Program-made: the position numbers and the translations under genes | Assembly (NCBI GenBank): GCA_011391125.1 | Contig: JAABRE010000030.1 | Coordinates: 1 to 54,613, forward strand | Length of the DNA stretch: 54,613 bases | Source of the DNA: Synechococcales cyanobacterium S06 | GTDB taxonomy: Bacteria; Cyanobacteriota; Cyanobacteriia; Cyanobacteriales; JAABRE01 | Reading direction: 5' to 3' | Notes under the pieces: model-generated | Told to the model about the DNA's origin: nothing | The model's database searches: none | What the model saw: only the letters and a program-made list of their open reading frames with translations | Shown here: in pieces, positions 1 through 45,142 of the stretch | Numbering within the stretch: position 1 is the first letter of the stretch | Layout of the letters: every line of letters begins with the position of its first letter

Positions 1-2
1 AG

Positions 3-812
3 TTAAAAAAAGGGATAATTCATCCTAGTCAAACTAATATTTACTTAAAAACAAAGGTAAAAAAAGCCGAACAAGTGAGGATTATTCCTAAGAAAAGAGT
101 TTATATAATTGAGGTAGTTTACTCAGTTGAAATAACCGAAAATCTTTTACCTAAAAAAAGAGTAGCAGCCATAGATTTAGAATTAAATAACTTAGCAACT
201 TTAAGTAGTAATTTACCGAATTACCAACCTAAAATCTATGATGGAAGAGCTTTGAAAGCAGTTAATCAATATGCAAATAAAGAAACTGCTAAGTTACAAT
301 CTCACTTAAAAGAAACCAGAATTACTAAAAGAATTAGTAAAATTTGGCAAAAAAGAAATCAGAAAATGGATTATTACCTCCATTGCACAAGTAAAGCAAT
401 TATAGCAGAACTTGTTAGAAACCAAATTGGTACATTAATTATTGGCTGGAATCAAAATTTTAAAGACTCAATTAATAACCAAAAATTTGTTAATATTCCC
501 CATAAAAGACTGATAGAGCAGTTAAAATATAAAGGATTATTGGCGGGAATTGAAGTTATTGAAACCGAAGAATCTTACACCAGTAAAGCAAGTTTTTACG
601 ACCAAGATAACCTCCCTAAATATCAAGCAGGAATCAAACATTCCTTTAGTGGAAAACGTTTTAAACGAGGATTATATCAATCAAGTTCAGGTAAAAAATT
701 GAATGCTGATTGTAATGGTAGCCTGAATATTATACGAAAAGTAGTTCCCTTAGCTTTTAGCAAAGGAATAGAGGGTGTTGTAGTTCACCCTATTAAGGTA
801 ACACTTAATTAA
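3..812 (+). CDS. tnpB: TnpB-family RNA-guided nuclease (IS200/IS605 OrfB), 5' end outside window
   Basis: The frame is open from the left edge with no stop before 812, so about the last 269 residues are visible and the start lies outside the window; the GTG at 75 is only an internal codon. All three RuvC acidic positions can be seen: Asp in AAIDLELNNLAT, Glu in IETEESYTSKAS and Asp in LNADCNGSLNI. The region between the last two has no CxxC zinc-ribbon pairs, as in the IS1341-like branch. TnpB proteins are transposon-encoded nucleases guided by an RNA that overlaps the 3' end of the gene. No tnpA is visible. The gene stops 37 bp before a NOS globin fragment, so the element's right end probably lies at that junction. 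The C-terminal half looks intact, but activity cannot be judged without the N terminus. Confidence 0.85.
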   Translation, partial: LKKGIIHPSQTNIYLKTKVKKAEQVRIIPKKRVYIIEVVYSVEITENLLPKKRVAAIDLELNNLATLSSNLPNYQPKIYDGRALKAVNQYANKETAKLQSHLKETRITKRISKIWQKRNQKMDYYLHCTSKAIIAELVRNQIGTLIIGWNQNFKDSINNQKFVNIPHKRLIEQLKYKGLLAGIEVIETEESYTSKASFYDQDNLPKYQAGIKHSFSGKRFKRGLYQSSSGKKLNADCNGSLNIIRKVVPLAFSKGIEGVVVHPIKVTLN

Positions 813-849
813 TTAGCTCTAGGAATATTTTTCTATAGATTTAACAACT

Positions 850-1044
850 ATGAGATCATCCTCTGCTATTTTACCAATTGAAATCCTAGAAACGAGCTTT
901 GAAAAAATTAAGCCTCGTGGGGAAGAATTTGCGGCTAGTTTTTATACAAACTTATTTAAAACTTATCGCGAAACTAAACATTTATTTACTAAAACTGATC
1001 TGGATAAACAAGGGAAAAAACTCATTAATTCTGATGTCCCTTAA
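850..1044 (+). pseudogene. N-terminal fragment of a globin domain (5' part of a globin-NOS gene), copy A
   Basis: The 64 codons encode the first helices of a bacterial flavohaemoglobin-like globin (ILETSFEKIKPRGEEF, then FYTNLFKTY). After KKLINS the globin sequence breaks off and TAA follows three codons later, so the haem-binding histidines are absent. It lies 57 bp upstream of, and in the same frame as, the NOS oxygenase reading frame. From what I recall of cyanobacterial NOS (Synechococcus PCC 7335), a globin precedes the oxygenase domain, so I infer the truncated head of a globin-NOS fusion; a separate small globin gene is the alternative. An almost identical copy lies at 43996-44222 on the other strand. 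Confidence 0.75.
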
Positions 1045-1101
1045 GACAGCGGGTAAATACCAGTTAATTCCTCTCCCACCTTTTATAACAAAGAACTAGC
1101 C

Positions 1102-2502
1102 ATGATACCAGTTAATGAAACCGAAAGTAACGCTCAAACTCCTAGCCCTAAATGTCCATTGGTAGAATCAGCTGGAGAATTTATACCCATTGAGCAGACC
1201 AGTTTTTATGCTCAACCGATTACCTCCGTTGCCAAAGAAGCTGAGGTATTTCTCAAGCAATGTTATCTCGAACAAGGTTTAGCAGAACTATTCCCTCCCC
1301 GTTGGCAATTCGTCAAGGACTCAATTGAACGTACCGGCACTTACGAACCGACTTACGATGAACTAGCTTATGGTGCCAAGTTGGCATGGCGTAACAGTAA
1401 TCGTTGTGTGGGACGCTATTTTTGGCATTGTTTACAACTGCTTGATCAGCGTCATTTATAGTAATTCCAATTAAGATGAGAACAGTTGAAAAATAGGTTC
1501 GTAGTTGCGCTTTAGCGCTTCTTAGGACTAAAGTCCAACAACAAACAAAAAACTTTTGTTTAATTTTTATTTGGAATTACTATACAAACCGAGGAGGAGA
1601 TTTTTCTCACTTTAGTTGAACATATTAACTTTGCCACTAATAATGGCAATCTGAGATCAACTATTACCATTTTCAATCCCGATTTGCAGATCAAAATTTG
1701 GAATAATTTACTCCTGCGTTATGCAGGTTATCGTCAATCAGATGGTAGTATTCTCGGCGATCCCGCCAATCTAGAATTAACAGATCAAGCACTTAAGTTA
1801 GGTTGGTCAAAAGATTCGAAAAGTCGTTTTGATGTCTTACCTTTGATTATTCAAATGGGTGAAAAAGAACCCCAATGGTTTGAAATTCCCCCAGAAATTA
1901 TCTTAGAAGTGCCGATTTCCCACCCTCGCTATGAATGGTTGGCCGATTTGGGACTAAAATGGTTTGCCTTACCTGCTGTAAGTAACATGGTGTTGGATCT
2001 GGGCGGAATCCAATACCCCGCAACCTTTAATGGTTTTTACATGGGGTCAGAAATTGGGGCGCGCAATTTGAGCGACACTAATCGCTATAATATGCTACCC
2101 ATTATTGCTGAAAAGATGGGGTTGGATTGTCGTAAAAAAATGACTCTTTGGCAGGATGTCGCCTTAGTCGAACTGAATATCGCTGTACTGCACTCCTATA
2201 AATTACATGGAGTTAAGATATTGGATCATCATACTTTAACCGATCTGTTTATGCAATTTGTGGATCAAAAACAACAGTGCGATCGCGTACCGGCGCCACT
2301 TTGCGATCGCCGCTTCGACGCCACTCTTAGTAATCGCCAGGTTTACGGAGATTGGACTTGGTTAGTTCCTCCCCTCTCAGGTTCAACTACACCAATTTTT
2401 CACTCCCGATTTGAAAATCGTCTGCTCAAACCCAATTATTTCTACGTTCGCGTACCTTGGGAAAAAGAACCTCAAGCTGGAGGATGCCCACTTCATCATT
2501 GA
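1102..2502 (+). pseudogene. nos: Nitric oxide synthase oxygenase domain, interrupted by a 124-bp MITE
   Basis: The frame encodes a NOS oxygenase: the haem-thiolate Cys in LAWRNSNRCVGR, the WFALPAVSNM block, the arginine-binding Glu in GFYMGSEIGARNL and the pterin-side WTWLVPPLSGSTTP. NOS oxidises L-arginine to citrulline and NO. The frame runs from ATG 1102 to Leu at 1456-1458, where TAG is supplied by the inserted MITE (1459-1582), and resumes in the same frame at CAA 1585 (QTEEEIF) to the stop at 2500-2502. Removing the MITE plus one copy of its TA target duplication rejoins RHL to QTEEEIF without a frameshift. No FAD/FMN reductase domain follows; the protein ends GGCPLHH. A small insertion holding two GCGATCGC sites sits at about 2277-2330. 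As it stands, the ORF before the MITE (119 aa) holds the haem Cys and the ORF after it holds the substrate Glu, so the gene is very likely silent. Confidence 0.9.
1459..1582 (-). mobile_element. MITE family A, copy 1 (inside nos)
   Basis: A 124-bp element with terminal inverted repeats TAGTAATTCCAA / TTGGAATTACTA, flanked by TA at 1457-1458 and 1583-1584. Two other copies of exactly the same length lie at 7207-7330 and 42477-42600 in opposite orientation. There is no open reading frame. The centre carries palindromic AAGCGCTAAAGCGC-like sequence. TA duplication and the lack of coding fit a non-autonomous IS630/Tc1-mariner type element (family inference). Confidence 0.88.
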
Positions 2503-2759
2503 TCAACGGCCCTGGGTTTGTTGTTGCTCCCCGTGGGCTTTCCGGCCGTTCGTACCCCTACATTAAGCCGGGAAACCGTTTCTTGCGTTGCTGCTCAAAA
2601 TTTTAAGACCCGAACCCGTGGGACCCTCTCCGGTGAGGGTGAGGGGAGCATATAGCAGTCCTAAACCCATACTGTAGAGACGTTGCAGGCAACGTCTCTA
2701 CAGTATTCCTAAAATACCAAATTAATTTTGGATACCAACTTACCCGTTGTCACCTCAGA
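2503..2759. repeat. Intergenic region with an 18-bp-arm palindrome (2669-2706), likely shared terminator
   Basis: The gap between the convergent nos and hemerythrin/EF-hand genes holds GC-richer sequence with no reading frame I recognise, then a near-perfect palindrome centred at 2687/2688: GTAGAGACGTTGC pairs with GCAACGTCTCTAC, arms of 18 bp around AG. Palindromes of this wording are common dispersed repeats in cyanobacteria (recollection). Its position between two convergent stops suggests it ends transcription from both sides. Confidence 0.7.
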
Positions 2760-4211
2760 TTAACTTTTCATGATGGTAATGAGTTCACCATAGTCAATTT
2801 CACCATCACCGTCCTGGTCTGCTTCTTTAATCAAACGTGCAATATCCTCTTCAGAAGCACCTAAATTAAGGTTATTGAGCAACAACGACAACTCAGCGGG
2901 TGAGATGGTTCCGCCGCCATCTCGATCCACAACTTTGAAAGTTTCCTTGAGATCTTCATCGGAGCAAGTATCTGTATAGTCTTTATTGCGATCTAAATCT
3001 TGGGGTGTTTCAAGCCAAGAAACATCAATCCCTTTATCCGCAAAGTATTTGGCATATTTCATGCCTTCACCCATGATTGAATCTACCATGGTGGTCTTGA
3101 GAGCCTGAACAACTTCCAGAGGATGAAGCACCCCGTTGGCTAATTTTTGTTTCCAGTCTTCAATCACTCGTTTTGTAAAGGAAGTAAGATTTTGGATATG
3201 GTCATCAGCGCCGGGATAACCAAATTTGGTCAAGATTTTCGATTCAATAGACACACTGCTTTGGCAAAAAGCTTCAAGCTTGGCGATCGTCTCTATCAAC
3301 TGCTCTTTAGTTTGCTTATTGTGAATTGCTTGACGTATATCTTCAATGAAAATGAAGATTTGAGCATGAAGACTGTCAATTAAAGGAATACCAGTGCGAT
3401 ATTTTTCACCCATACGAACTGGTTCATTTAAGAGAGCTTTAAAGATATTATTAATCTCACCCCAACTAATACCATCTTGAGATGAAGTTTGGCTGGAATT
3501 CGTCATAATGGTGATTAGTTCACTGTAGTCGATTTCACCATCACCGTCCTGATCAGCTTCTTTGATCAGACGAGCGATATCTGCATCCGAAGCCTTTACA
3601 TTAAGGTTTTTCAGCAACAACGCCAACTCCTCGGGGGAGATGGTTCCGCCGCCATCTCGATCCACAACTTTGAAAGTTTCCTTCAGATCTTCAGGAGTGG
3701 ATGTACCGACATAATCTTTACCACGATCCAAATCTTGGGGTGTTTCAATCCAAGAAACATCAATGCCGTTGTCAGCAAAGTATTGGGCATATTTGACATC
3801 CTCTGCAATAATGGCATCTACCACTGTTGTTTTAAGACCATAAACAACTTCGAGAGGATGAAGAGTCCCGTTAGCCAAACTTGTCTTCCAGTTGTTAAGC
3901 ACCCTATTGGTAAAGGATACTAAAGTCTTAGTATGGTCATCAGCACCGGGATAACCAAGTTTTGTCATGATTTTGGATTCAAACGAAAAATGGTAGCCGC
4001 AGAAATCTTCAAGCTTGGCCATAGTCTGCATCAACTGCTCTTGGGTTTGTTTCTGACGGATAGCTTGACGAATCTCCTCAATAAAGATAAAAACTTGAGC
4101 GTGATGACTGTCAACTAAAGGAATACCAGTGCGATATTTCTCACCCATACGGACGGGTTCATTAAGTAAATTTCTAAATAAATTATTGATCTCAAGCCAA
4201 GTAATTGCCAT
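2760..4211 (-). CDS. Tandem hemerythrin-like / EF-hand Ca2+-binding protein
   Basis: The 483 residues are two copies of one ~240-residue unit: a bacteriohemerythrin-like helical domain, a WIETPQDLDR/WLETPQDLDR linker and a pair of EF-hands. The EF loops are textbook: DRDGGGTISPEE and DQDGDGEIDYSE in unit 1, DRDGGGTISPAE and DQDGDGEIDYGE in unit 2, giving four predicted Ca2+ sites in a calmodulin-like pattern. Unit 1 keeps His37, the HFSFE motif (His74, Glu78) and His93, but positions where the family usually has further His ligands read Leu and Ala. Unit 2 has lost more (see findings). There is no signal peptide or membrane segment, so it is cytosolic. It points towards nos across a shared palindrome. 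A Ca2+ and O2/NO responsive protein is plausible; its partner is unknown. Confidence 0.85.
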   Translation of the reverse strand: MAITWLEINNLFRNLLNEPVRMGEKYRTGIPLVDSHHAQVFIFIEEIRQAIRQKQTQEQLMQTMAKLEDFCGYHFSFESKIMTKLGYPGADDHTKTLVSFTNRVLNNWKTSLANGTLHPLEVVYGLKTTVVDAIIAEDVKYAQYFADNGIDVSWIETPQDLDRGKDYVGTSTPEDLKETFKVVDRDGGGTISPEELALLLKNLNVKASDADIARLIKEADQDGDGEIDYSELITIMTNSSQTSSQDGISWGEINNIFKALLNEPVRMGEKYRTGIPLIDSLHAQIFIFIEDIRQAIHNKQTKEQLIETIAKLEAFCQSSVSIESKILTKFGYPGADDHIQNLTSFTKRVIEDWKQKLANGVLHPLEVVQALKTTMVDSIMGEGMKYAKYFADKGIDVSWLETPQDLDRNKDYTDTCSDEDLKETFKVVDRDGGGTISPAELSLLLNNLNLGASEEDIARLIKEADQDGDGEIDYGELITIMKS

Positions 4212-4524
4212 GTAATCTAGTACCTTAATATCCTAGTAATAATTAGCGTCAAAATGAGATAATTCACATTTTTTTCGCTAATTTAATATATCTATTATTG
4301 AGATTAATCAGACTATTTGTCAATCTTATTAAATATGCTAAATAGCTATAGCTGTTATAACTATTAAGTAGGGTCTCCTGACTAAATTTGTCGGTGAAGA
4401 TGAGTAGTTATTTCAGTTATTCAGTTAACAGTTACTACTGCCTTTAGGTGGTAGCTTGAAATAAGGAATATTTTTATTTTCATCCCCTTGAAAAAAGAGG
4501 CCTGACATCGCTTTTCTTGTTATT
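4212..4524. other. Intergenic region upstream of the hemerythrin/EF-hand gene
   Basis: 313 bp without a gene. The part next to 4211 is very AT-rich and should hold the promoter of the hemerythrin/EF-hand gene, but I see no box I would stand behind. The part next to the LysR stop (about 4475-4535) resembles the hairpin repeats at 52.3 and 54.4 kb: it shares a CCTTGAAAAAAGAGG hairpin-like piece and GACATCGCTTTTCTTG. Confidence 0.5.
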
Positions 4525-5421
4525 TCAATTAACAAGTCCTCTATCCTCAAAGAGAATTTTGAGAAACTTATCTAAAGATTGAGAAGGTATTTCCTTCCTC
4601 CAAACAGCCGTAGATCTGGCATGGTAGATGGGATGGTGAAGGGGCATAAATACAACTTGGGGATGGGGTAAACTTTCTGCTTCATTGGGCATAACGGCGA
4701 CTCCTTGTCCGGCCGCGACCAGAGCAATCATGGAAGCATGGCTATTGGCAAACAGGCACAGATTGGGCGTGAAACCTGCGCAGCGGCAAGTGTCACGAAT
4801 GCGATCATTCCGACCAGGAAAGGTATCTTCGGACATTCCGATAAATTTTTCCGTCGCCAATTGGGCCAAATTAATAGAATACTGATTTGCCAAGGAATGG
4901 CTGCTGGGTAACACCGCCGCTATCGCAACTTGCCTAACACTTCTAACTGAAAACTCTTCGTCCAATTCATCAGGAGGATTGCCCATAAACGCAATGTTGA
5001 TCGCACCATCTCGCAGGTTTTTAACTTGTTCACCAGGTGAAAGTTCTAGCAAACCCAGGGAAATTTGAGGATAAACAAGTCCAAAGCGGTTTAAGTTTAC
5101 TCCTAAAAAACTTTGGAGGATCGTGGGAATATAGCCGATCACTAAAGGTGGAGCTATGTTGCTGTAACGAGATTGGGTGTTTTGTATAGCGACATTAGTA
5201 CGATGCAAAATATCTTTTGCTTGTTCGAGCAAAAAAACTCCTGCTTCAGTGAGTTTCAAGCCATCTGATTGTCTGAGAAATAGCATAACGCCCAATTCAT
5301 CTTCAATTGCTTTAATTTGACGACTTAAAGCTGGTTGCGAAATAAATATCCTGACAGCAGCACGACTGAAATTAAGTTCTTCGGCAACAATAAGAAAATT
5401 TTTAAGAGTTTTTAATTCCAT
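4525..5421 (-). CDS. LysR-family transcriptional regulator
   Basis: 298 residues, the normal LysR length. The N-terminal winged helix-turn-helix is clear (MELKTLKNFLIVAEELNFS, then ISQPALSRQIKAIEDELG) and is followed by a periplasmic-binding-protein-like effector domain (VIGYIPTILQSF ... VAAGQGVAVMP). It resembles the CatR/BenM/CbbR-like branch by eye. The nearest genes are the hemerythrin/EF-hand protein downstream on the same strand and a broken TnpB-like gene upstream, so there is no divergent target to suggest its regulon. ATG at 5421 starts directly at the HTH, as usual for the family. Confidence 0.93.
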   Translation of the reverse strand: MELKTLKNFLIVAEELNFSRAAVRIFISQPALSRQIKAIEDELGVMLFLRQSDGLKLTEAGVFLLEQAKDILHRTNVAIQNTQSRYSNIAPPLVIGYIPTILQSFLGVNLNRFGLVYPQISLGLLELSPGEQVKNLRDGAINIAFMGNPPDELDEEFSVRSVRQVAIAAVLPSSHSLANQYSINLAQLATEKFIGMSEDTFPGRNDRIRDTCRCAGFTPNLCLFANSHASMIALVAAGQGVAVMPNEAESLPHPQVVFMPLHHPIYHARSTAVWRKEIPSQSLDKFLKILFEDRGLVN

Positions 5422-5598
5422 TTGGGTATGCTTAAAATTTATAACTACTAAAATTATAAAGCATTAGACTTTAGGGGGTAAACTAAATCTACTTAAAACT
5501 ATGCAGCTTAGGTAAAAGGGTCTTTTGTTGCTGGTATCTTCTGTTTTGGTCGTGGTGATGGCACGTTGACGACATTCTTGGTACTAATCTCCCAAAAC

Positions 5599-5624
5599 GG
5601 GTAGGCACAAGACCTACCCCTACA
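5599..5624. repeat. Short dispersed palindrome-like repeat, copy 1
   Basis: A 26-bp sequence (GGGTAGGCACAAGACCTACC plus CCTACA) that recurs exactly at 6199-6224, inside the broken TnpB-like gene. GGTAGG and CCTACC can pair, so it forms a small hairpin. A related GTAGGGGTAGGGCTTGTCCC occurs near 28972. Confidence 0.7.
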
Positions 5625-5633
5625 CCTTACCGA

Positions 5634-7078
5634 CTACCCCTGTCGGTGATATTCAACTTCTAATTTCAGTGCTTTTGCTTTAAACTTTGGTAACAAGTAC
5701 CCAAGTTCAAGAGCTGAGTTTACTGAAATTGCCAACGAAGCTAAATATCGAACAGTGCGAGTTAAAAGCTCGCTTTCAACCTCACTCGCTTTCATATAGC
5801 GGGTGATTTTGTGATCCTGTCCTCGAACGCAAATATTTAGTGCTGCATTCAAATCAGCTTGTATCACATCCCCCGTAAAACGGATAAAGCGGTCGCCCAT
5901 ACTCAGTTAACAGTGAACAGTTAACAGTTAACAGTGAACAGTTAACACTTAAGATACTAGGGAGACAATTGATAATTGATAACTGATGACTGATAACTGA
6001 TAATGGGCTGGGTTAAATCTTCGCAGTAAATATCGACAGATGTCGTGAGATTCTGTCTTAAATCTGAGCGAATAAAATTCTGTATTGTGGCTTTTTCTTC
6101 GCTTAATCTTTTTGATTTTACCTTGTAGCCAAGATTATTTTTAATAATGTTTTTACTCTTATTTTTATCGTGATTATGAGGATGTACCCCCCTAACCAGG
6201 GTAGGCACAAGACCTACCCCTACAAGGGGGGAAGTATTAAGAGCATAATTTCTTAGACGGTAACGATTACGGTTGGTTTTAGTAATTCTCTCCGTTTTTG
6301 CTGTCATTAATTTACCTAATTCTGGAGCTATAACTGCACCTTCACTGGTATAGAATCCTTCGGTATAACCTTTATCAATTCCTATTTTTTTAGTAGGTTT
6401 TGATTGAGGTATTTTTATCTCTTTAATGTTCGTACAATGAACTTCTATTTTACCAAATTCATTTTTGATTACCCGAATCTGTCCTTTAATTACATGACGA
6501 CATTTGAGCTTAAGTTTTATTCTTTTGCCTTTTTCTAAACCCGCTATTTCTAACTGCACTGAACTACGACTAATTCTTTTACACTCATAGCCTGCATTTT
6601 GGTAAACAATCTGGTTTCTGACAAAAGTATGTCCTTTTATATACTGTTCTCTAAAATGTCTATGTAACCAGTTATTAGCTGTAGGGTCATTTTTTAGTAA
6701 GTTTAATAACTCTTTTCTCTCATTTTTGTCAGTAGTAAAACGGTAAATTTCTTTAATTAAAAAGGTTTTAGCAGCTTCTTGTTGCGCCAAAATTGCTTTC
6801 ATAGTATCATTTGCTGACCATTCCCACAATTTTGACGGTAAACCAATGTCAGCAGGTTTGAGAATTGTTCTAACCAAGGGGTCAGCTTTTTTCCAATCCA
6901 ACCCCCAACCTTGTAAAGAACCGAGTTTGTTGTAGGTTAAAGCTCTTGGAGTGCCGCACAAAGTCATAATTCTCGTTAATTGATTCAAGTCAGAGCAAGT
7001 TGTCACAGGAATCACCAGGTATAAACTTCCTGATTTGTTTGGCTCTGGTTTTTCGACATAGCTTTTTGGGCTAAACAC
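5634..7078 (-). pseudogene. Broken TnpB-like / type V-U-like RuvC nuclease gene
   Basis: Two pieces of one gene. 7078-5957 encodes the N-terminal part with RuvC-I (KKIGIDKGYTEGFYTS) and RuvC-II (DIYCEDLTQPI); 5900-5634 encodes RuvC-III (DVIQADLNAALNICVRG) and the C terminus. At 5901-6000 the stretch expected between them is replaced by short tandem repeats (AACTGATAACTGATAA-like and GTTAACAGTGAACA-like) that bring a stop, so perhaps 50-70 residues are lost. The first piece also carries an in-frame insertion of a dispersed repeat (about 6180-6240, translated SPLVGVGLVPTLVRGVHP). I recall proteins of about 500 residues of this type in many cyanobacteria, annotated as transposase or TnpB and related to type V-U effectors. 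No tnpA and no CRISPR array is nearby. Confidence 0.75.
6199..6224. repeat. Short dispersed repeat, copy 2, inside the TnpB-like pseudogene
   Basis: Identical over 26 bp to 5599-5624. Here the repeat and its flanks (about 6180-6240) are translated in frame within the pseudogene, adding roughly 20 residues between the RuvC-I and RuvC-II regions. Confidence 0.7.
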
Positions 7079-7206
7079 CCGTTAATTATACCTTACAATG
7101 CTAATATTTTTAATTCTATCTACTTGACGAGAAGTTATTAATGGGATTAATCTGTGCATAATTTTAGTTCGCTAGTTTTTCTAAGAAAAGCCTAGTTTCT
7201 CTGCTA

Positions 7207-7330
7207 TAGTAATTCCAAATAAAAATTAAACAAAAGTTTTTAGTTTGTTGTTGGACTTTAGTCCTAAGAAGCGCTAAAGCGCAACTACGAACCTATTTTT
7301 TAACTGTTCTAATCTTAATTGGAATTACTA
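7207..7330 (+). mobile_element. MITE family A, copy 2
   Basis: A 124-bp element, TAGTAATTCCAAAT to GGAATTACTA, flanked by TA at 7205-7206 and 7331-7332. It is nearly identical to the copies in nos and in the IS701 element. It lies in the 432-bp gap (7079-7510) between the TnpB-like pseudogene and the first channel-like gene; the rest of the gap is AT-rich, with no gene seen. It could affect transcription of the channel genes. Confidence 0.88.
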
Positions 7331-7510
7331 TAATAGTTAAACCGCTGTGTTTTGATAAAGCTTTCACTCTATAGGAAAATGTTATAAATACCATGCTGAT
7401 AAAGCATGATAATTAAGGTCCTTTTTTGATTACCCTAGAATACTGTAGATTTTAATCCAAATTTCGGCACCAACAACCACAGAACCAATAGTCAATAAAG
7501 GATTTGATAA

Positions 7511-42405: not shown

Positions 42406-42476
42406 TTTTTTAAGATAGTCATTTCAAATAAAATTGAAACAGTGTAGCGCTCTTTTAGGATTTAAAGAGAGATATA

Positions 42477-42600
42477 TAGTAATTCCAAATAAAAATTAAA
42501 CAAAAGTTTTTAGTTTGTTGTTGGACTTTAGTCCTAAGAAGCGCTAAAGCGCAACTACGAACCTATTTTTTCACTGTTCTAATCTTAATTGAAATTACTA
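42477..42600 (+). mobile_element. MITE family A, copy 3 (nested in the IS701 element)
   Basis: 124 bp between TA at 42475-42476 and TA at 42601-42602. Same orientation as the 7207 copy and nearly the same sequence (TTTTTTCACTG for TTTTTTAACTG). It sits between the left IS end and the transposase start, so it arrived after the IS701 element. Confidence 0.88.
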
Positions 42601-42637
42601 TAATTAAGATAAAGAGAGTGAAATTAAGAGGTGGTAT

Positions 42638-43995: not shown

Positions 43996-44222
43996 TAACT
44001 GGTATTTACCGTTTCACACCTGCTGTCTTAAGGGACATCAGAATTAATGAGTTTTTTCCCTTATTTATCCAGATCAGTTTTAGTAAATAAATGTTTAGTT
44101 TCGCGATAAGTTTTAAATAAGTTTGTATAAAAACTAGCCGCAAATTCTTCCCCACGAGGCTTAATTTTTTCAAAGCTCGTTTCTAGGATTTCAATTGGTA
44201 AAATAGCAGAGGATGATCTCAT
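43996..44222 (-). pseudogene. N-terminal fragment of the globin(-NOS) gene, copy B
   Basis: The reverse complement is nearly identical to 850-1066. Over the first ~200 bases I see a single change, CAA to TAA, which puts a stop after DLDK. Near the end, copy B has AGGTGTGAAACG where copy A has GG, after which both continue GTAAATACCAGTTA. Homology then ends exactly at the IS701 tip. On its 5' side the ATG overlaps the bestrophin stop as ATGA. Copy B therefore looks like the one in the ancestral context, cut off from the NOS oxygenase by the IS event. Confidence 0.88.
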
Positions 44223-45142
44223 ACATATTTAGATTGAGAAAGTTCCCAATTAACCCACTCTGTTTCAATTTCAGCTTGTACTTGTTGGCAAAATTTATCT
44301 AAAGGTAGGTCATTGCGATCATAACCAAAAGGGTTTTCAATTTCGACACCAATGTCTTCTATTCCTAATAAGGTAAAGCTAATAATTCCCACTACTGGAA
44401 TCGTAAACCAATGCAATTCGGCTACAAATTGAAAAGGTAAAGCAAAGCAATATAATAATAATAAATGTTTTAAATGAATAGAATAAGGTCGAGGAAGGGG
44501 AGTATTTGAAATGCGTTCACAACTACTAAATATCATGGTTATCTGGTCTAAAGAACGGTTTAATTCCACGAATAAACGATAGGGAATTACTTTTTGAATA
44601 TGATAAAGTTCACTAAAATAATCGGCAAACCAATTCATAATTCTCACTGGTTTATTCTTAACTTTTTTTAGCTCTAAATATTGTTTTTCAGTCAAAAATG
44701 GTTCCATCTTTTGCTCAAGATTTTCATTTCTTAAATGATGTTTAATACTAACTATCAATAAACCAACCAATCTCAGATGAAATATTTTTTTGCTCAAATC
44801 TTCCTGATTATTTGTAATCACAATTGTCCAAATATTACGACATAAAATACGAGCAGCATTGATTAAGTCATGCCAAAGTTTACAACCTTCCCAAAATCTG
44901 TCGTATGCTGTATTCGTTCTAAAAACCAATAAAAGTCCGAGCACAACTCCTGGGATTAAACTAGCGAGAATCGGTTGGTTTACCGAAAATTTTTGGTAAT
45001 AGGCGATCGTGATTAGCAAAGCAAAAATCATCGTTGCTAATACTCGTCGCCAAATCTCTTGAATAACTGAACTTCTTAAATCTATGGCTAATTGTAGCCA
45101 AGTTGAGTTTTTTATTGACATTGATGGTTTTCTTGTTTCCAA
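44219..45142 (-). CDS. Bestrophin-like anion channel (UPF0187 family)
   Basis: 307 residues. Bestrophin-family features: an early membrane pair (WRRVLATMIFALLITIAYY, then ILASLIPGVVLGLLLVFRTN), the hallmark NTAYDRFWEGCKLWHDLINAARIL and a later membrane pair around LLLYCFALPFQFVAEL. The C-terminal part has IGVEIENPFGYDRNDLPLDK, very typical of the family. Bacterial members form pentameric channels; cyanobacterial and algal ones have been linked to chloride or bicarbonate flow. The stop overlaps the start of globin copy B (ATGA), which suggests former translational coupling to the globin-NOS gene. Confidence 0.92.
   Translation of the reverse strand: METRKPSMSIKNSTWLQLAIDLRSSVIQEIWRRVLATMIFALLITIAYYQKFSVNQPILASLIPGVVLGLLLVFRTNTAYDRFWEGCKLWHDLINAARILCRNIWTIVITNNQEDLSKKIFHLRLVGLLIVSIKHHLRNENLEQKMEPFLTEKQYLELKKVKNKPVRIMNWFADYFSELYHIQKVIPYRLFVELNRSLDQITMIFSSCERISNTPLPRPYSIHLKHLLLLYCFALPFQFVAELHWFTIPVVGIISFTLLGIEDIGVEIENPFGYDRNDLPLDKFCQQVQAEIETEWVNWELSQSKYV

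Follow-up and report, generated by a model that had tools for sequence, protein, structure and literature searches.

The question raised by this locus is whether a nitric oxide synthase (NOS) gene interrupted by a MITE is an otherwise intact gene that precise loss of the element would restore, as a sequence-only reading of the DNA had proposed, or the relic of a gene already damaged in other ways. The window, by which we mean the whole stretch of DNA analysed, is one entire contig (C92, 54,613 bases) from a cyanobacterial draft assembly that totals 4.81 Mb and has 168 contigs, and the 99 other genomes searched all came from outside the genus and family of the source genome. Taken together, the evidence given below indicates that the locus is very probably what is left of a reductase-first (Sorangium-type) NOS gene that several hits have recently turned into a pseudogene.

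The gene was found to encode an NOS oxygenase, as had been proposed, with matches to Pfam NO_synthase (PF02898) above the curated cut-off spanning 1102-1458 and 1585-2499 (Table 1). The frame opens with an ATG at 1102, runs to a TTA (Leu) codon at 1456-1458 where the MITE follows, resumes at 1585 and reaches its stop at 2502. Reading through the MITE gives five in-frame stops and no frame shift, leaving the oxygenase domain without one continuous reading frame, and the 424 codons outside the element hold neither stop nor frame shift. The coordinates and arithmetic of the sequence-only reading were right, as was its view that the flanks rejoin in frame and that only the stops of the MITE block translation. 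In the alignment with relatives RCVGR stands before the cut and YMGSEIGARN after it, in the order first described; we take RCVGR to be the haem Cys motif and the Glu of YMGSEIGARN to be the substrate (arginine) Glu. An alignment with three solved NOS was also made; the window oxygenase has a 17-residue insert that the solved proteins lack. At 135 columns invariant elsewhere (a count made with L079, introduced below, excluded) the window oxygenase has nine changes, against 0-1 in G047, G032, L048 and L049, 9 in L052 and 10 in L056. A promoter serving a lone oxygenase was sought and rejected, as 8 promoter-like sites lay in 800-2700 (3.9 expected) and none on the plus strand of 929-1102; an Rfam scan of 1-6000 gave no match over the gathering score.

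Table 1. Features of the NOS locus and related elements in the window (positions are those of the window).
Feature	Position	Strand	Evidence or remark
IS605-type tnpB gene, cut by contig start	3..812	+	Pfam OrfB_IS605, Cas12f1-like_TNB
Duplicated 206-bp globin stub, N-terminal ~61 residues	849..1054	+	99% identical to 44018-44223, other strand
NOS oxygenase, first piece, 119 codons, putative haem Cys motif RCVGR	1102..1458	+	PF02898 E 1.9e-26; alignment
TA target copy, left	1457..1458		duplicated relative to L079
MITE, 124 bp, inverted ends, five in-frame stops	1459..1582		
TA target copy, right	1583..1584		
NOS oxygenase, second piece, 305 codons + stop, putative Glu motif YMGSEIGARN	1585..2502	+	PF02898 E 5.6e-119; alignments
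In-frame insert, 51 bp (17 aa), GCGATCGC-containing repeat units	2284..2334	+	alignments; genome repeats
Second MITE copy in window	7205..7332	-	97.7% identical; ends found in end search
Third MITE copy in window	42475..42603	-	96.1% identical
Other globin stub copy, ATG overlaps stop of bestrophin gene	44018..44223	-	

The insertion site was found uninterrupted in relatives. In the closest homologue found, L079 of Microcoleus sp. MP8IB2.171 (the same gene as L205; 82% amino-acid identity over 237 residues), window 1244-1458 matched positions 6622-6836 and window 1583-2129 matched 6835-7376 at the DNA level, and as the two matches share coordinates 6835-6836, their overlap is exactly the 2-bp TA. 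Intact relatives read RHLQTEEEIF (L044, L046) or RHLETEEEMF (L042, L043) across the site, and the relatives in the protein alignments cross it gap-free with RHL or RHV, one residue and TE (leaving aside L143, aligned in the wrong frame). The uninterrupted relatives and the TA overlap together show that the gene was formerly continuous and that the insertion duplicated a TA in it. L079 is itself broken elsewhere: residues 337-853 are missing and a 5-bp gap lies close to the contig end, which may be real lesions or MAG errors, and on account of both it was dropped as an intact reference.

The MITE has many relations in its own genome. Its 14-bp end has 186 exact copies there (the first 100 of these places being shown), compared to 0 for a reversed control, and at least 41 copies were listed at 94-100% identity, with 40 of 376 candidate places scored. 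Among the 30 copies fetched as loci and compared, that in the NOS gene included, one other (at C132) is identical to it, two (one at C44) have a single difference and 26 have three or four; a TA flanks both ends of 27 of the 30. Single-stranded folding of the MITE DNA gave a z of -4.4. Elements of the IS630-Tc1-mariner family target TA, and with its inverted ends, lack of a transposase gene, many copies and TA target duplication the element is an IS630-type MITE. PF13358 matched at 22 places in the genome, two of which lie in complete IS630-type elements (949 and 950 bp, each with two frame-shifted ORFs) whose ends are similar, not identical, to those of the MITE (86% over 29 bp and, at the other end, 86% over 21 bp). 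The presence of these elements makes a cognate transposase in the same genome plausible, and it was presumably such an IS630-type transposase that moved the MITE. At C100:17982-18835 (L134 483-1336), 854 bp, two inverted MITE right ends enclose an acetyltransferase-like ORF (named by eye), an arrangement that looks as if MITE ends had carried a passenger gene; the idea that this element held the transposase was rejected, the ORF within it being GNAT-like (again named by eye).

The type of NOS from which the oxygenase derives was addressed with a tree of 94 oxygenases, in which the window sequence fell in a 22-member clade (local support 0.983) that also includes Sorangium cellulosum loci. A reductase precedes the oxygenase in the same frame in 19 of the 21 other members (18 distinct members, L043 and L111 being evidently one record), and the remaining two are at a contig edge (L063) or broken (L079); the frames of L050 and L052 are shorter (698 and 638 residues) and still include the reductase. 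In L046 and L042 a single ORF contains EF-hand, Fer2_BFD, FAD_binding_6, NAD_binding_1 and NO_synthase domains (Pfam). Within-frame BLAST divided 93 loci into 23 reductase-first, 2 reductase-last and 68 without a match to either reductase query, a few of these 68 having frames of 600-800 residues that may hold other parts. The window gene thus groups with the reductase-first form and carries no [2Fe-2S]/FAD/NAD reductase at the N-terminus of its protein; since the clade fits but the reductase is absent, the locus is a relic of that form and not a member of it. Nor is it of the SyNOS type, as its frame ends at 2502 without a C-terminal diflavin reductase and the tree places its oxygenase elsewhere. 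The extra SDR-like and EF-hand parts carried by cyanobacterial reductase-first NOS could be tested for calcium control. On the minus strand at 2760-4211, convergent with the remnant, lies a gene for a 483-residue protein with four EF-hand stretches, a unit that looks duplicated by eye, and a hemerythrin similarity too weak to reach the Pfam cut-off; intact NOS relatives also have EF-hands. Elsewhere, three relatives have a gene for a bestrophin-type channel after their reductase-first NOS (L044 5955-6914, L046 8518-9495 and L049 9099-9950; 71-85% mutual identity), and in L041 (8467-9777 and 9853-10536) an NOS consisting of the oxygenase only stands immediately ahead of a globin gene, a pair of which one member might make NO and the other scavenge it.

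The sequence-only reading had called the gene otherwise intact, and this did not survive the comparison, for everything that lies upstream of the oxygenase domain in an enzyme of about 1200 residues is absent 5' of 1102. When the 836 residues preceding the L046 oxygenase were used as a query, no match was obtained in the source genome at E 0.001. Four of six genomes were positive with this query (G047, G245 and G148 matched the greater part of it, G366 the first 337 residues only), and there was no match in G049. In a draft of 168 contigs the reductase part could have fallen into an assembly gap or lie ahead of where the contig begins, though the completeness of the draft is given as 99.98. 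In place of the reductase stand a tnpB gene and a globin stub, and a rearrangement would have removed the SDR-like, EF-hand, [2Fe-2S] and FAD/NAD reductase domains and left these two ahead of the oxygenase. The same genome has an intact globin of 250 aa, to whose N-terminus the stub is 55% identical up to residue 61, where the match stops; Pfam does not recognise so short a piece. The high identity of the two stub copies points to a recent duplication, unless gene conversion keeps them alike. As these copies (849-1054 and 44018-44223) are inverted and 43 kb apart, recombination between them could invert the segment. An ancestral operon of NOS, bestrophin and globin was considered and rejected: the bestrophin of the window is only 47-49% identical to those of L044, L046 and L049, compared to the far higher identity among these three, so it is probably a paralogue.

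The second lesion inside the coding sequence, the 17-residue insert, lies just ahead of a conserved DW stretch and is absent from the aligned relatives that reach 2284-2334. Similar GCGATCGC-bearing repeats were found at five other places in the genome (C136:19297, C96:145 and 229, C17:7727, C164:14329), a short repeat family able to expand in frame within a gene. In a predicted structure of the second piece only, mean pLDDT was 80.6, with means of 59 and 50 for the insert blocks and values under 50 for residues 244-249 of the model, within the insert. In this model the insert behaves as a floppy loop would, and it may be tolerated.

To estimate the age of the decay, a codon model was fitted to 10 of 14 aligned sequences over 356 codons, with linker and insert removed; the relatives covered in genome contigs are 80 of the 96 confirmed, and the alignment was reduced from 18 sequences to 14 by dropping L143 (wrong frame) and L145, L146 and L148 (repeats of L056, L049 and L051). 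The window branch gave an omega of 0.138 (profile interval about 0.09-0.20) against a background of 0.090 (2dlnL 4.17), values that are rough because synonymous change is large on several branches (saturation). Neutral evolution along the whole branch was rejected (omega=1, 2dlnL 81.5). The nine other tips, tested alone, ranged from 0.053 to 0.311, so the window value is not unusual, and three intact tips exceed it (G064 0.207, G047 0.268, G032 0.311). Assuming neutral decay, constraint was absent for roughly 5% of the branch (about 12% at most). Both kinds of change are plentiful on this branch, with 0.23 amino-acid changes per site compared to about 0.05 for the nearest relatives. Decay over most of the window branch is excluded, and these data support constraint on the NOS oxygenase until recently and hence a recent knockout, as had been supposed; the identical MITE copy elsewhere in the genome agrees with this.

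We therefore regard the locus as the product of three hits, which could have come in any order: loss of the reductase part, in-frame expansion of a GCGATCGC-type repeat within what would be an oxygenase loop, and insertion at a TA of a non-autonomous IS630-type MITE, presumably mobilised in trans, whose five stops block translation. The repeat expansion and the MITE insertion are observed; the rearrangement behind the first hit is the likeliest account of the absence and of the present neighbours. From the present locus presumably no working NOS is made. The claim that precise loss of the MITE would restore the gene did not hold, as the upstream half is missing and the insert remains. After clean loss the locus would encode only an oxygenase, of 424 residues and with the 17-residue loop, and since the reductase half is seemingly gone, the original enzyme would not come back.

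Among other readings, the one that deserves most weight, though we consider it rather unlikely, is that after loss of the reductase the oxygenase worked alone with cellular reductases, like the NOS of Bacillus, and that only the MITE killed it. Lone NOS oxygenases work with cellular reductases in other bacteria, according to the available text of PMC3701330, so activity of the joined lone oxygenase is conceivable by analogy. The small excess in omega, together with the higher values of three intact tips, makes a lone oxygenase that was functional until the arrival of the MITE possible, and the frame of 424 codons open across both flanks from an ATG, the low branch omega, the retained Cys and Glu motifs, the survival of a linker resembling that of relatives and the commonness of NOS frames without a detected reductase (68 of the 93 loci) all point the same way. 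Against it stand the insert just before the DW stretch, the nine changes at otherwise invariant columns (although L052 and L056 have as many or more) and the want of a clear lone oxygenase in its own clade, where L063 is at a contig edge. Were it true, a strain with an empty site would have a working lone NOS. A more elaborate form of it, in which an oxygenase broken from a reductase-first NOS became a Bacillus-like lone enzyme supplied by photosynthetic ferredoxin or flavodoxin, and in which a MITE segregating in the population now silences it, so that NOS-plus and NOS-minus cells coexist, strikes us as improbable.

That an intact NOS gene has been reversibly switched off by one MITE we hold to be very improbable, for all that the clean TA site, the in-frame flanks and the recent element would suit it: the upstream domains are missing and a second insert is present. 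Clean excision is, moreover, probably not what cleavage of the ISY100 type would suggest, its chemistry as given in the available text of PMC2170065 appearing to disfavour a clean empty site. A draft of 168 contigs containing a repeat family of very many copies invites the suspicion that the MITE was wrongly placed within the gene by the assembly, but an element of only 124 bp, with an exact TA duplication and with the same gene continuing on both flanks, makes such an artefact hardly credible. Equally hard to credit is a SyNOS-type ancestry (globin-oxygenase-reductase), with the stub as its N-terminal globin: the stub does lie upstream of the oxygenase in the same frame, but it duplicates, at 99% identity, the stub that lies 43 kb away next to a bestrophin gene, and the oxygenase groups in the tree with the reductase-first NOS and not with L045 and L047, for which reasons this ancestry was rejected.

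Understood as a relic of a reductase-first NOS, the locus shows an NOS gene early in decay, which helps to account for the uneven distribution of NOS among cyanobacteria. The rarity that had been claimed was borne out, with a PF02898 match in 42 of 388 genomes of the order, the source genome included. Four other genomes were inspected for broken NOS. The single-contig genome G297 has only a SyNOS-type relic of about 200 bases with stops; the SyNOS-type gene of G190 has no match before residue 532 or for residues 666-993, and its two remaining parts are out of frame; the NOS of the draft G366 lacks residues 337-853; and G260, where a C-terminal piece close to the end of a 5.5-kb contig is all that is seen, was uninformative. 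The broken genes of the first three lie at L202 3759-3953, L203 3821-4222 and 4225-5718, and L205 6618-6622. The damage in G297, G190 and G366 shows that NOS loss recurs in this order, so that besides being gained NOS is being lost, through MITE insertion here and through internal deletion or erosion in those three genomes. The locus, a pseudogene that a MITE has made of a known type of NOS, is of interest for the moment of NOS loss it captures and not as a reversible switch. Titles and abstract openings among the literature matches listed, which covered few subscription journals, held no report of a MITE-interrupted cyanobacterial NOS.

Pseudogenes made by MITEs are already known in cyanobacteria, with 15 disrupted ORFs described for Anabaena sp. 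90 in the available text of PMC3542288. There too reading frames are broken by short elements that have terminal repeats and carry no gene, but those MITEs matched no IS ends of their own genome according to that text, whereas the window MITE has IS630-type elements with similar ends. With ISY100 and the IS630-Tc1-mariner group, as described in the accessible part of PMC2170065, the window MITE shares short inverted ends; it differs in having no transposase ORF, and the IS630-type element of its own genome has two frame-shifted ORFs. Among NOS proteins, two prokaryotic architectures, oxygenase alone and globin-oxygenase-reductase, appear in the tree of PMC6104048 as far as its available text goes. 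SyNOS of Synechococcus PCC 7335 is also a cyanobacterial NOS, but it is built as globin(s)-oxygenase-reductase (PMC6104048, PMC12922734, both in their available parts), and the SyNOS-type loci compared (L045, L047) are about 38% identical to the second piece of the window oxygenase. The inverted Sorangium architecture is attributed to Microcoleus vaginatus and Crinalium epipsammum in the available text of PMC3701330, and the cyanobacterial relatives of Sorangium-type NOS found here outnumber the two named there. The window gene differs from the Sorangium type in lacking the upstream reductase and other domains, in its MITE-cut frame and in the 17-residue insert, but its second piece is 55-58% identical to the Sorangium loci (L053, L054, L055, L057, L058) and 70-73% identical to the nearest cyanobacterial reductase-first NOS (L044, L046, L048, L049, L050).
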